Shown here piece after piece: positions 7,478 through 17,945 of a stretch of DNA of 64,000 nucleotides. A program made the position numbers and the translations under genes. Each line of letters opens with the position of its first letter. Positions within the stretch are counted from its first letter, which is position 1. Origin of the DNA: Planctomycetota bacterium (GTDB lineage Bacteria; Planctomycetota; UBA1135; GCA-002686595). Location: the NCBI GenBank assembly GCA_029259655.1, contig JAJDET010000376.1:62001-126000 (forward strand), given 5' to 3'. The notes beneath the pieces are model-generated. The model saw only the letters and a list, made by a program, of their open reading frames with translations. It did not search any database and was not told the DNA's origin.

Positions 7478-7550
7478 GGAAGGGGTAGTTCAGCGGAAGA
7501 ACGCCGAGTTGTGGCCTCGGTAGTCGCGGGTTCGAATCCCGTCCCTTTCC
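7478..7550 (+). tRNA. tRNA-His (GTG)
   Basis: Cloverleaf complete. Anticodon loop TTGTGGC gives GTG. The extra 5' G at 7478 pairs with C73, the His identity feature. No CCA encoded. Confidence 0.93.
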
Positions 7551-7634
7551 CTTGCGGTGCTTGAACGTCGGGCGCCGGTCGATCTGCTCGCAGGTCGATG
7601 CAGGTCCTTTTGGGGGCCACACGTTCGTATGTAG
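7551..7634 (+). other. Inter-tRNA spacer with CACGTTCG
   Basis: 84 nt with GGTCC and GGGGGCC blocks and the octamer CACGTTCG at 7622-7629, which recurs in the split tRNA-like genes. No gene seen. Confidence 0.35.
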
Positions 7635-7707
7635 CGGGGTGGAGCAGCTGGTAGCTCGTCGGGCTCATAACCCGGAGGTCGTGGGTTCAACTCCCACCCC
7701 CGCCATA
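7635..7707 (+). tRNA. Initiator-type tRNA-Met (CAT)
   Basis: Anticodon stem has GGG/CCC around CTCATAA, the D arm begins TGGAGCAG, and A1 faces C72 without pairing. These are the hallmarks of a bacterial initiator tRNA. No CCA encoded. Confidence 0.9.
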
Positions 7708-7806
7708 CCGTCTCGGTGCTATCTCCGAGGCGAGACCTGTTCTCTGACAACATGGTTTCCTCAGATACGGAGGCGCGAGCTCACCCATGAGCACGTGCCT
7801 CCTCAC

Positions 7807-7879
7807 GGGGCCGTAGCTCAACTGGGAGAGCGCCTGTTTTGCAAACAGGGGGTTCGGGGTTCGATTCCCCGCGGTTCCA
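7807..7879 (+). tRNA. tRNA-Ala (TGC)
   Basis: Full cloverleaf; anticodon loop TTTGCAA. Acceptor GGGGCCG/CGGTTCC uses G-T wobbles; A73. Confidence 0.93.
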
Positions 7880-7880
7880 C

Positions 7881-8020
7881 TCGACGGTAGCTCAGTGGTA
7901 GAGCACCTTCCCGCAAGGGATCTCGATCATCCACCAACACGTTCGTTTCGGCGGACCATCGGAAACGATCGTTATTGACTTCCAATCAGGTGGCCGTGGG
8001 TTCAACTCCCACCCGTCGAT
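7881..8020 (+). tRNA. tRNA-Gly-like (TCC) interrupted by a 68-nt insertion
   Basis: A perfect 7-bp acceptor (TCGACGG/CCGTCGA), U73, D arm and T arm enclose an insertion at 7908-7975 inside the 5' anticodon stem. Removing it restores CCTGA-CTTCCAA-TCAGG, a good tRNA-Gly(TCC) arm. A normal tRNA-Gly(TCC) is also present at 8394. The insertion is homologous to the one in the next gene and lies upstream of Ro60, so the unspliced RNA may itself be the functional form (a tRNA-mimicking Y RNA). Confidence 0.6.
7908..7975 (+). other. Insertion element A in the anticodon stem
   Basis: 68 nt beginning TTCCC-GCAA-GGG (tetraloop hairpin), then CACGTTCG at 7938-7945, TTCGG and GGACCA, and ending GATCGTTAT (7967-7975). 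About two-thirds or more identical by eye to element B at 8050-8115. Far too small for a group I or II intron. Confidence 0.6.
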
Positions 8021-8021
8021 T

Positions 8022-8160
8022 TCAGCGGTAGCTCAATTGGTAGAGCGCTTCCCTTCGGGGATCCCGATCACCGGCATCACGTTCGCTTCGGTGGACCACA
8101 CGGAACGATCGTTATTGAAATGTAATCAAGAGGTTGTGGGTTCGAGTCCCACCCGCTGTA
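8022..8160 (+). tRNA. tRNA-like gene (TGT after removal of a 66-nt insertion)
   Basis: Acceptor TCAGCGG/CCGCTGT pairs at six positions (T1-T72 mismatch); D and T arms are good. The insertion at 8050-8115 splits the anticodon stem. Removing it gives CTTGA-AATGTAA-TCAAG, but position 33 would be A, not the near-universal U. It is therefore a doubtful decoding tRNA and a stronger candidate for a tRNA-mimic RNA. Confidence 0.5.
8050..8115 (+). other. Insertion element B in the anticodon stem
   Basis: 66 nt: TTCCC-TTCG-GGG hairpin, CACGTTCG at 8078-8085, TTCGG, GGACCA and GATCGTTAT at 8107-8115. The tetraloop differs from element A (TTCG versus GCAA) while the stem is kept, i.e. the change preserves structure. 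Confidence 0.6.
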
Positions 8161-8164
8161 CTTT

Positions 8165-8239
8165 GCCTCTGTGGAGCAGCCTGGAGTGCTCGTCAGATTG
8201 TCGATCTGAAGGCCGTGGGTTCAAATCCCACCAGGGGCG
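8165..8239 (+). tRNA. tRNA-Asp (GTC)
   Basis: Anticodon loop TTGTCGA, stem TCAGA/TCTGA, G73. D arm GGAGCAGCCTGGAGTGCTC resembles that of the initiator but the anticodon is GTC. Confidence 0.92.
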
Positions 8240-8242
8240 TTT

Positions 8243-15671: not shown

Positions 15672-15676
15672 CTCTT

Positions 15677-15750
15677 GGGACCGTAGCTCAGCTGGATAGA
15701 GCACCGAGCTTCTACCTCGGATGTCGGGGGTTCGATCCCTCCCGGTCTCG
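15677..15750 (+). tRNA. tRNA-Arg (TCT)
   Basis: Acceptor GGGACCG/CGGTCTC, stem CCGAG/CTCGG, loop CTTCTAC, G73. Confidence 0.93.
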
Positions 15751-15841
15751 TCTTCCTCCCCGCGCCCACCCCTGGTTTGATAGGCTGTGCCCAGAGCTCG
15801 CCGAGAGCTCGAGCATCGTCATCCAGCGGGGAGCGGCTCTG

Positions 15842-17659
15842 ATGAGCGAGTTTCGGATCAACGGCACCAGCGGCATCGACACGGCCAGCGGTGCGCCCGG
15901 CTCACCCAAGAAGACCCTCGGGGTCATCGATCCGGCCGACGCCAACGCCCTGACGCTGGTCTCTGGCGACGTCGTCATCATCGAGGCCGGCTCGGGGGTC
16001 TACCTGGGTCAGCACCTCCAGAACATTCCCGCCGGCGTCACGGTCATGACGGAGACGGGGACTCTTCCCAACGATCGCCCCCTCATCGACGGTGACCTCC
16101 AGTTCGACTACGGAGCCGGCAAGGACACCTTCGGCGACACCATGAATGGGGTCAGCATCATCGGCCTCAGGTTCCGGAGGTTCAGGAAGGGTGGCGTTGG
16201 ATTTGGGGTAGGCGACTCGTCGAACAACCTATTGCAGTCGCTGAAGATCTTCGAAATCTGGAACGGCGCCCTGGACTCCGCCACTCCCGCCGGCGAAGGC
16301 GCGGGGCTGGTCCTCGTGAACGACAGCGGCAGCACAGGGAATCGAGCGACCGATTGCGTCGTCGAGGACATCTACGGAGATGGGATCTTCCTGACTACGT
16401 TCACGGGCACGCAAGACTGGCAGGTGGACCACAACACGGTTCGACGCTGCGGACGACTCGCGTGGCTCGAGCGGGGCTTGAACGACGCCGCCGGCGACGG
16501 GATCGCTGACCACAGCGGCTGCATTGGAGAACGGTTCAACAACTGGATCGAGGACGTCTACAACAAGGGCCTGAGCCACCGCGGAACCGGCAAGGCCACT
16601 ATCTACAACAACTTCATCCGGAACGTTCGCCAGAAGGCACTCCTCTGCGCAACCGGACAGGCGGATTTCTTCAACAACATCGTCGTGATCCTTCCGAGGG
16701 ACCCGAACGATCCGTTGCTCCTGAACACGCCGGTGGGGCTTGCCATCGAGCCCGCGCTGACCACCGTCATCAACCTCGTGAACAACACGTTCGCGAACTA
16801 CTTCGACGGCCAGACGTTCACGATCATGGGCGGCATCGGCGCCAACTACGCGATCAGTTCGTTGGGGAACATCTTCTACGGCAACGGGGAGCTCATCACG
16901 CACTTCCGCCAGTCGGCAGGCGTTCCGGCCTTCGGTCCGTGGGACTACAACCTCTACGACGGCGACGGCTCGCGGGCGTTCTCCTACGCCCCTGGCGACA
17001 CCTTCGTCAACTTCCAAACGTGGAAGGACACCCTCGCAGTCCTGCTGGTTGATCGAGCATCGATCGTCGGTGCGTCCGGTCTTCCGATCTCGGCTGACCT
17101 GTTCACGCATCCGCTTGACGCGGACATCGGTGCGCAGTCCGATGCGCGCGGCGTGGCTCGAGAGCAGATCGTCCTGGTCCCGCACAGTGGCTTGGCATCC
17201 GACTACCTCGGCAGGACGAGGCCCCTGTCCGCAAACTGGACCGCAGGAGCGATTCAGTACGAGACCCCGACGACGGCGAATCAGACGCTCACCATGTTGG
17301 GCAGTTACACCACGCCTGTCGAGAAGAACATCACCTTGCGTCGGAGCGATACCGCCGCGTTCAGGCTGACTCTCACCGGGCTGGGCGCCAACTGGCCCGA
17401 GCTCACCCGGGACGTTGTCTTCACCATCCGGCATCCTGTTGAGCAGGATCCGATCCGACCCGTCCTCTCAAGGACCTACGAGGCGGAAGAGGTCGTCGTC
17501 GACGGGACGACCGAAACGGCGATCACCGTGCTGGCTCCGCAGGTAGATCTCAGAGCCGGCCAGCAGTACTTCTACAGCTGGCTGGTAGAAGAGGCCAATG
17601 GGGAGAAGACGACGGTCTCCCACGGCAAGATCACCGTGACCGAAAACGCTGTCGCGTAG
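15842..17659 (+). CDS. Beta-helix tail-spike-like protein
   Basis: 605 residues from ATG 15842. Residues about 100-430 have the Asn/Gly-rich, aliphatic-repeat pattern of a right-handed parallel beta-helix, as in pectate lyases and phage tail spikes (e.g. TIYNNFIRNVRQKALLCATG, ADFFNNIVVILP, VINLVNNTFANYF). The last ~120 residues (PVEKNITLRRSDTAAFRLTL...DVVFTIRHP...GQQYFYSWLVEE...GKITV) look like the beta-sandwich of BppU-type baseplate proteins, which may attach the spike. Catalysis on a host polysaccharide is possible. It is isolated from the tail operon, among tRNAs. Confidence 0.7.
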   Translation: MSEFRINGTSGIDTASGAPGSPKKTLGVIDPADANALTLVSGDVVIIEAGSGVYLGQHLQNIPAGVTVMTETGTLPNDRPLIDGDLQFDYGAGKDTFGDTMNGVSIIGLRFRRFRKGGVGFGVGDSSNNLLQSLKIFEIWNGALDSATPAGEGAGLVLVNDSGSTGNRATDCVVEDIYGDGIFLTTFTGTQDWQVDHNTVRRCGRLAWLERGLNDAAGDGIADHSGCIGERFNNWIEDVYNKGLSHRGTGKATIYNNFIRNVRQKALLCATGQADFFNNIVVILPRDPNDPLLLNTPVGLAIEPALTTVINLVNNTFANYFDGQTFTIMGGIGANYAISSLGNIFYGNGELITHFRQSAGVPAFGPWDYNLYDGDGSRAFSYAPGDTFVNFQTWKDTLAVLLVDRASIVGASGLPISADLFTHPLDADIGAQSDARGVAREQIVLVPHSGLASDYLGRTRPLSANWTAGAIQYETPTTANQTLTMLGSYTTPVEKNITLRRSDTAAFRLTLTGLGANWPELTRDVVFTIRHPVEQDPIRPVLSRTYEAEEVVVDGTTETAITVLAPQVDLRAGQQYFYSWLVEEANGEKTTVSHGKITVTENAVA

Positions 17660-17679
17660 GTCACGAAAACCTCATCTCT

Positions 17680-17753
17680 CCTACGGTAGCTCAGTCCGGT
17701 AGAGTGCCCGTCTGATACGCGGGTGGCCGGAGGTTCAAATCCTCCCCGTAGGA
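17680..17753 (+). tRNA. tRNA-Ile (GAT)
   Basis: Acceptor CCTACGG/CCGTAGG, anticodon loop CTGATAC, A73. Confidence 0.9.
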
Positions 17754-17756
17754 CTC

Positions 17757-17785
17757 TTGAAACGGTGCGGCGATCGCCGTATCCT
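17757..17785 (+). promoter_or_regulatory. Promoter with dyad operator before tRNA-Phe
   Basis: TTGAAA, 17-bp spacer ending in the perfect dyad CGGCGATCGCCG, TATCCT. The predicted +1 is 1-3 nt before the mature 5' end of tRNA-Phe at 17794. Confidence 0.75.
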
Positions 17786-17793
17786 ATTGAAAT

Positions 17794-17867
17794 GGTGCCG
17801 TAGCTCAGTTGGATAGAGCGCTGCCTTGAAACCGCAGAGGCCCGTGGTTCGAATCCACGCGGTACCA
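17794..17867 (+). tRNA. tRNA-Phe (GAA)
   Basis: Acceptor GGTGCCG/CGGTACC, anticodon loop TTGAAAC, A73; inner anticodon-stem pair is C-C. Confidence 0.87.
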
Positions 17868-17872
17868 TCGAC

Positions 17873-17945
17873 GGGTCCGTAGCTCAGACGGTAGAGCAGC
17901 CCACTCATAATGGGTTGGTCCGCGGTTCGAATCCGTGCGGGCCTA
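17873..17945 (+). tRNA. tRNA-Met or tRNA-Ile2 (CAT)
   Basis: Acceptor GGGTCCG/CGGGCCT, stem GCCCA/TGGGT, loop CTCATAA, A73. No initiator 1-72 mismatch of the A-C type (G-T wobble here), so probably elongator or Ile2. Confidence 0.87.

Follow-up and report, generated by a model that had tools for sequence, protein, structure and literature searches.

Candidate Y RNAs embedded in tRNA bodies beside the rsr gene of a myophage binned with a planctomycete genome

Introduction

What are the two tandem RNAs, here called A and B, that stand within the transfer RNA (tRNA) array of a phage, upstream of its gene for an Rsr/Ro60 protein? Both lie in a 64,000-nucleotide stretch of DNA (positions 62,001 to 126,000 of contig JAJDET010000376.1, GenBank assembly GCA_029259655.1, Planctomycetota bacterium), which is called the window here and in whose own numbering positions are given unless another locus is named. 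The contig is a complete 157-kb myophage genome that was binned into a bacterial metagenome-assembled genome (MAG). In bacteria, Rsr acts together with Y RNAs, which are tRNA mimics (PMC8394870, PMC7790460). Sequence comparison suggests that A and B are themselves most likely Y RNAs, in which a Ro-binding stem would be inserted in a whole tRNA body, and that they are partners of the phage Rsr encoded in its tRNA operon.

Results and discussion

RNA A (7881..8019) and RNA B (8022..8160) are both on the forward strand, are 139 nt long each and 73% alike, and are flanked by tRNA-Ala and tRNA-Asp. Each runs in the order acceptor, D-arm, Ro stem, anticodon hairpin, T-arm, acceptor. In A, the acceptor strands are at 7881-7887 and 8013-8019, the D-arm at 7890-7904 and the T-arm at 7996-8012; between the two arms come an extra hairpin (7909-7920), a proximal stem (7924-7928/7967-7971), a closing hairpin (7941-7946[TTCG]7951-7956) and an anticodon-like hairpin (~7977-7987). 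B, which also has both a D-arm and a T-arm (the latter at 8136-8152), has its proximal stem at 8065-8069/8107-8111 and its closing hairpin at 8081-8086[TTCG]8091-8096. All seven acceptor pairs form in A and six of seven in B, and a UUCG hairpin joins the strands of the Ro stem in both copies (GTTCGT[TTCG]GCGGAC and GTTCGC[TTCG]GTGGAC). Between the two RNAs, acceptor pairs 3-70 and 4-69 and one pair of the anticodon stem have changed on both sides in a compensatory way, and the loop of the extra hairpin differs as well (GCAA vs TTCG).

Neither RNA was recognized as such by standard programs. A tRNA-Gly called by ARAGORN at 7948-8020 is an artefact that corresponds to the 3′ part of RNA A, and the Rfam 'tRNA' at 8022-8160 is actually RNA B. 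In a functional tRNA the anticodon arm comes right after the D-arm and has U33; here an insert of ~67 nt precedes the anticodon-like hairpin in both RNAs, and B has A33. We initially favoured an intron reading, in which the insert of A and B would be spliced out to leave tRNA-Gly(UCC) and tRNA-Thr(UGU), respectively: A without its insert is a perfect cloverleaf (loop CTTCCAA, U73), and both the intron mode of ARAGORN and Rfam report A and B as tRNAs. It was dropped once homologues with the Y-RNA motif had been found, and we now consider it highly improbable. Spliced B would keep its A33 and carry a T1xT72 mismatch, the array already has genes for Gly-TCC (8394) and Thr-TGT (11311), the insert bears Y-RNA motifs, and homologues such as that at locus L445 lack the anticodon hairpin altogether. 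The size of the insert and the splicing machinery of bacteria also speak against it; 67 nt is far below the size that a group I intron needs, and the archaeal splicing endonuclease is not known from bacteria.

The next protein gene 3′ of A and B is rsr (8542..10287, forward strand), with matches to Pfam TROVE (2.7e-26), vWA_Ro60 (7.3e-34) and PHROG 850 (3.3e-52). The two RNAs lie 380-660 nt upstream of it, B at 380 nt. No other TROVE gene was found in the host MAG, so the Rsr that partners A and B should be the phage's own. YrlA-like RNAs stand just upstream of rsr in Cashline, Sparky, FuzzBuster, Dandelion, prophiGD43A-5 and Kikimora; they score 31-42 bits with Rfam YrlA (RF02553), whose gathering score is 69. 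The rsr-linked phage Y RNAs, the first five of these included, have a strand GATCGGTTAYC before the T-arm and a strand CCGGTC..CACCAACACG after the D-arm. In A and B, the strands GATCGTTATTG and CGATC..CACGTTCG have the corresponding positions with respect to the T- and D-arms, inside one gene. The annotated tRNA-Ser of Kikimora (L333, 2942-3016) and tRNA-Thr of prophiGD43A-5 (L341, 2262-2340) overlap permuted Y RNAs beside rsr and are probable misannotations.

With the Rfam YrlA model, the A/B region scores 33.7 and 32.3 bits, which is likewise under the gathering score. A and B share with YrlA (RF02553, PMC8394870) the Ro/Rsr-binding stem with its conserved strands, the tRNA-like module of D-arm, T-arm and acceptor, and a gene next to rsr. 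They differ from it in the order of the parts: YrlA runs from the T-arm through a closed acceptor hairpin to the D-arm and has its ends paired in the Ro stem, whereas A and B have a closed Ro stem and their termini at the acceptor. Judged by this order, A and B are a circular permutation of YrlA. In canonical Y RNAs both termini lie at the open end of the Ro stem; capping of that end by the UUCG tetraloop would move them to the tRNA acceptor.

The same arrangement was found in other phages. Eighty IMG/VR rsr loci were gathered with a narrower alignment of phage Rsr proteins; all nine Rsr proteins together gave no conserved stretch, and searches of IMG/VR with single Rsr sequences found nothing. 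A first screen of the 80 loci, which looked for tRNA frames interrupted by a long insert, found the A/B topology at five distinct places (L345, the same as L346; L347; L356, the same as L357; L368; L376), 160-830 nt upstream of rsr and in every case on the rsr strand. The same screen on the minus strand gave zero matches. A match at L399 was rejected, as it runs across neighbouring tRNAs; matches in other tRNA-rich viral loci mostly span adjacent tRNAs too, and a match in this screen is not proof alone. A second, independent screen used the closed Ro-stem motif only, with no tRNA required, and gave 26 new loci, eight of them tRNA-embedded. These comprise all seven loci whose fetched stretch includes rsr and one of the 19 whose stretch does not (Fisher p = 1.2e-5), and this one, L427, has rsr elsewhere on the same contig. 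Two of the seven (L433 and L444) are the L356/L357 contigs again. The motif scan thus added tRNA-embedded copies in L426, L427, L429, L436, L441 and L445, and the distinct other phage loci with a tRNA-embedded Y RNA number at least ten. Additional copies were found with a covariance model, R1, in two of these, so that three stand in tandem in L427 (168-558) and two in L429 (12326-12584), on apparently different tRNA bodies (e.g. Glu- and Gly-like).

Of the five members from the first screen, four are labelled plain tRNA by Rfam, and this is why RNAs of this type would have been overlooked. A BLAST search with the insert alone against phage records returned chance matches only. No description of the tRNA-embedded arrangement was found in the literature searched, a search that did not reach key YrlA papers. 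Beside some of the embedded Y RNAs are simple hairpins (L356, 4501-4569; L376, 4308-4402; L368, 3758-3825) that match Rfam RF01656 near or just below its gathering score. In Rfam this is the nematode sRNA family ceN72-3/ceN74-2, which we take to be a Y-RNA-like stem-bulge RNA.

The structure was also assessed by covariation. When 11 members were aligned to R1, 92% of the cells paired and 24 of the 29 pairs had changed on both sides; the covariation score was 0.702, as compared with 0.249 +/- 0.025 for shuffled and at most 0.157 for slid controls. A MAFFT alignment with no structure fitting gave 0.726 against 0.246. Since R1 separated A from ordinary tRNAs weakly (54 vs 50 bits), a second model, R2, was built from those 11 members with the window sequences excluded. 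R2 gave 77.7 bits to B (E 7.7e-18) and 72.5 bits to A (E 1.7e-16), and 53.4 bits to the top ordinary tRNA in the window.

Several points weigh against the interpretation of A and B as tRNA-embedded Y RNAs. The first count of covariation came from an alignment fitted to R1. The GGGCCGA/CTTGCCC ends common to most other members are missing from A and B, which have GYGGACCA/CACGTTCG instead, and an effector role for them would be carried over by analogy from bacterial Rsr systems. Further, the 3′ half of A can pair canonically (permuted) with the 5′ half of B, where the weak Rfam YrlA match of 33.7 bits is found (7988-8050). The functional RNA could therefore be a canonical permuted YrlA that extends from the 3′ half of A to the 5′ half of B (about 7950-8095), with remnants flanking it. 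Its score is within the 31-42 range of the Sparky, Dandelion and Kikimora Y RNAs, and both Ro-stem strands can pair across A and B. Nevertheless, we think this unlikely. Complementarity of the acceptor strands, as given above, is high within each gene and poorer between the 3′ end of A and the 5′ end of B, a local UUCG hairpin closes the Ro stem in both copies, and single-copy homologues such as L368 and L345 fit the unpermuted order only.

If A and B are tRNA-embedded Y RNAs, a working scheme can be proposed. Tight packing, 1-4 nt from the flanking tRNAs, suggests that both RNAs undergo end processing of the tRNA type, presumably by RNase P and RNase Z. The inserted stem would bind the phage Rsr. 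The tRNA body may serve as the effector module, tethering or gating a nuclease such as PNPase in a YrlA-like manner; PNPase tethering has been reported in bacteria (PMC8394870). Alternatively, the body may be a decoy for host tRNA-cutting nucleases; such a role has been proposed in bacteria with an anticodon nuclease as the target (PMC7790460). We rate at about even the chance of a broader proposal, in which these RNAs form an unnamed class of phage Y RNAs: a Ro stem in a complete tRNA, tRNA-processed and perhaps aminoacylated, independently acquired, a missing link from tRNA to YrlA, and a decoy or sensor in defence. Different tRNA bodies, such as those of the three copies in L427 and the two in L429, appear to have acquired the Ro stem independently. 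The window has the closed Ro-stem motif a third time, in element C (15484..15545, forward strand), which was identified by motif and fold. It has no recognisable T-arm and a GC-rich closing hairpin in place of UUCG, and is probably a decayed Y-RNA copy.

The array that surrounds A and B extends over 7479..17945, with protein genes interspersed among the tRNAs. ARAGORN called 37 tRNA genes there, all on the forward strand, and Rfam at its gathering score gave 36 tRNA matches (RF00005) and one transfer-messenger RNA (tmRNA). Once the match at 7948 is reassigned to RNA A and 8022-8160 is set apart, 36 ordinary tRNA genes remain, 35 of them backed by Rfam; Ser-CGA at 11816 is called by ARAGORN alone. 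The initial annotation had counted about 40 genes, two of which are the putative Y RNAs and two more, Ser-TGA and Ser-GGA, lack support. All 20 amino acids are covered, and the Thr and Pro anticodons are as it had claimed. With 35 tRNAs passing Rfam, a covariance check does not reveal the many pseudogenes that would have undermined the array. The full Ser box of the initial annotation was overstated: the TGA (~11389-11471) and GGA (~12014-12101) genes gave no tRNA match by ARAGORN or Rfam even at E<=2, while CGA has the ARAGORN call. Cloverleaf-like folds are possible for both candidates, but the TTCRA T-loop is absent, with non-canonical loops in its place (ATCGAGA in the Ser-TGA-like and TCGGGT in the Ser-GGA-like gene). 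Between two Ser genes, at 11700-11812, is a tRNA-like segment whose T-arm is good (GTAGG TTCGAAG CCTAC) and which contains a long internal hairpin.

The initiator-type tRNA-Met that had been predicted is confirmed on reading its sequence (7633..7705, forward strand), which has the A1xC72 mismatch and the GGG/CCC anticodon stem. One further Lys-TTT tRNA is encoded elsewhere in the phage genome. Together with it, the array reads 53 of the 61 codons by simple wobble, or 92% of phage codon use; unread are Ala GCC/GCU, Ser UCC/UCU/UCA, Leu CUA/UUA and Ile AUA. Thus the near-complete decoding set described earlier stands for 20 of 20 amino acids, the initiator and the tmRNA, but eight codons are left unread and the set is not self-sufficient under simple wobble (Ala GCC/GCU and part of Ser). 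Promoter-like sequences with a palindromic GGTGATCACC-like spacer element are seen at ~8479-8510, upstream of rsr, and at ~14900-14930, upstream of the Glu-CTC tRNA, and a similar motif is at ~17762. The palindrome at the first two of these sites is a possible shared operator.

Near-complete phage tRNA sets are already known. The Xanthomonas jumbo phage XacN1 has 56 tRNAs for 20 amino acids (PMC5852040); it is another phage, and shares with ours a set of phage tRNAs that covers every amino acid. Momo, a Cluster C mycobacteriophage, has 34 tRNAs and a tmRNA (PMC4472892). Cluster C phages (Momo, Dandelion, Myrna) share with this one a large myophage genome, a tRNA array, a tmRNA and a Ro/TROVE protein; their rsr-linked Y RNAs, however, read as the permuted type, and the proteins are only ~34% identical.

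An established proposal for phage tRNAs is that they allow escape from defences that cleave tRNA (eLife 2023, PMC10264068), with a precedent in retron-Eco7/Septu and the tRNA-Tyr of T5/T6 (PMC13096335). By analogy, such escape is a plausible role for this array: the tRNA set and the tmRNA would keep translation supplied while host tRNAs are limiting or cut. The array might instead provide codon compensation or growth-rate optimisation, which we hold to be a tentative alternative, somewhat short of probable. A broad set that includes commonly used isoacceptors and reads most codons is in keeping with it, whereas 20 amino acids plus an initiator and a tmRNA exceed what rare-codon supplementation needs.

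The three tRNA-Leu genes of the array, all on the forward strand and called by ARAGORN, are of an unusual form. As read from alignments, tRNA-Leu(CAG) (10585..10659), tRNA-Leu(CAA) (10844..10919) and tRNA-Leu(GAG) (11533..11607) each have a 5-nt variable region, the class I form for CAG. The long variable arm is thus absent from three of three phage genes and is present in the five tRNA-Leu of the host MAG and in the relatives G008 and G005. All three keep A73, A15-U48, G18G19 and A20a, the identity set of E. coli tRNA-Leu, for which the long arm is dispensable (PMC9976931). We had at first taken the short arm to be phage-specific, as an initial pattern found it in no bacterial genome; a relaxed pattern gave >100 matches, mainly in actinobacteria. 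Well over 100 viral contigs carry the short-arm form, and so do phages of Streptomyces and Pseudomonas putida and actinobacterial chromosomes. Short-variable-loop tRNA-Leu has been noted once in mycobacteria (PMC6582537). The actinobacterial short-loop tRNA-Leu and mobile tRNA clusters of that report share the 5-nt variable region and the Leu-type D-arm, and the difference is that here all three phage genes are short-armed and the five of the host MAG long-armed. Retron-Eco7 and Septu cut variable loops of tRNA-Tyr (PMC13096335), and by analogy the short-arm tRNA-Leu may resist nucleases that cut there.

The predicted tmRNA was also verified (13963..14379, forward strand). It is of the one-piece type with G3-U70 and A73, is missed by ARAGORN and is clearly found by Rfam (RF00023, 79.9 bits, above the gathering score), and has a readable proposed tag, ANSNMIDAAHRFGGQRTLALAG, at 14055-14123. 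The phage tag ends in ALAG and the host tag is ANNYSLAA. An ending other than the host LAA could possibly affect proteolysis of the tagged products.

The assignment to a phage is well founded. The contig is 157,355 bp long with ends identical over 141 bp, as expected of a complete phage genome, in a MAG of 6.4 Mb and 376 contigs. Terminase, portal, tail sheath, tape measure and baseplate genes are in the window; DNA polymerase A, DnaB-type helicase, RecA and UvrD-type proteins are encoded outside it. The closest IMG/VR portal proteins are at most 63% identical. A tRNA array is likewise present in a related phage (G008/L077), where Rfam finds 38 tRNAs, an initiator-like gene among them. A scan of ~110 phage proteins (Pfam or PHROGs) showed neither an aminoacyl-tRNA synthetase nor an RNA ligase. 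Close to the structural genes, 30919-32262 gives a weak radical-SAM/QueE-like match.

Conclusion

Annotation pipelines label embedded Y RNAs as tRNA, which inflates phage tRNA counts and leaves a class of Y RNAs overlooked. Bacterial Y RNAs being known tRNA mimics, a tRNA with a Ro stem beside a phage rsr suggests that Y RNAs may have arisen directly from tRNAs, a route that can be tested. An Rsr ribonucleoprotein inside a tRNA-supply operon, moreover, points to phage control of tRNA damage.

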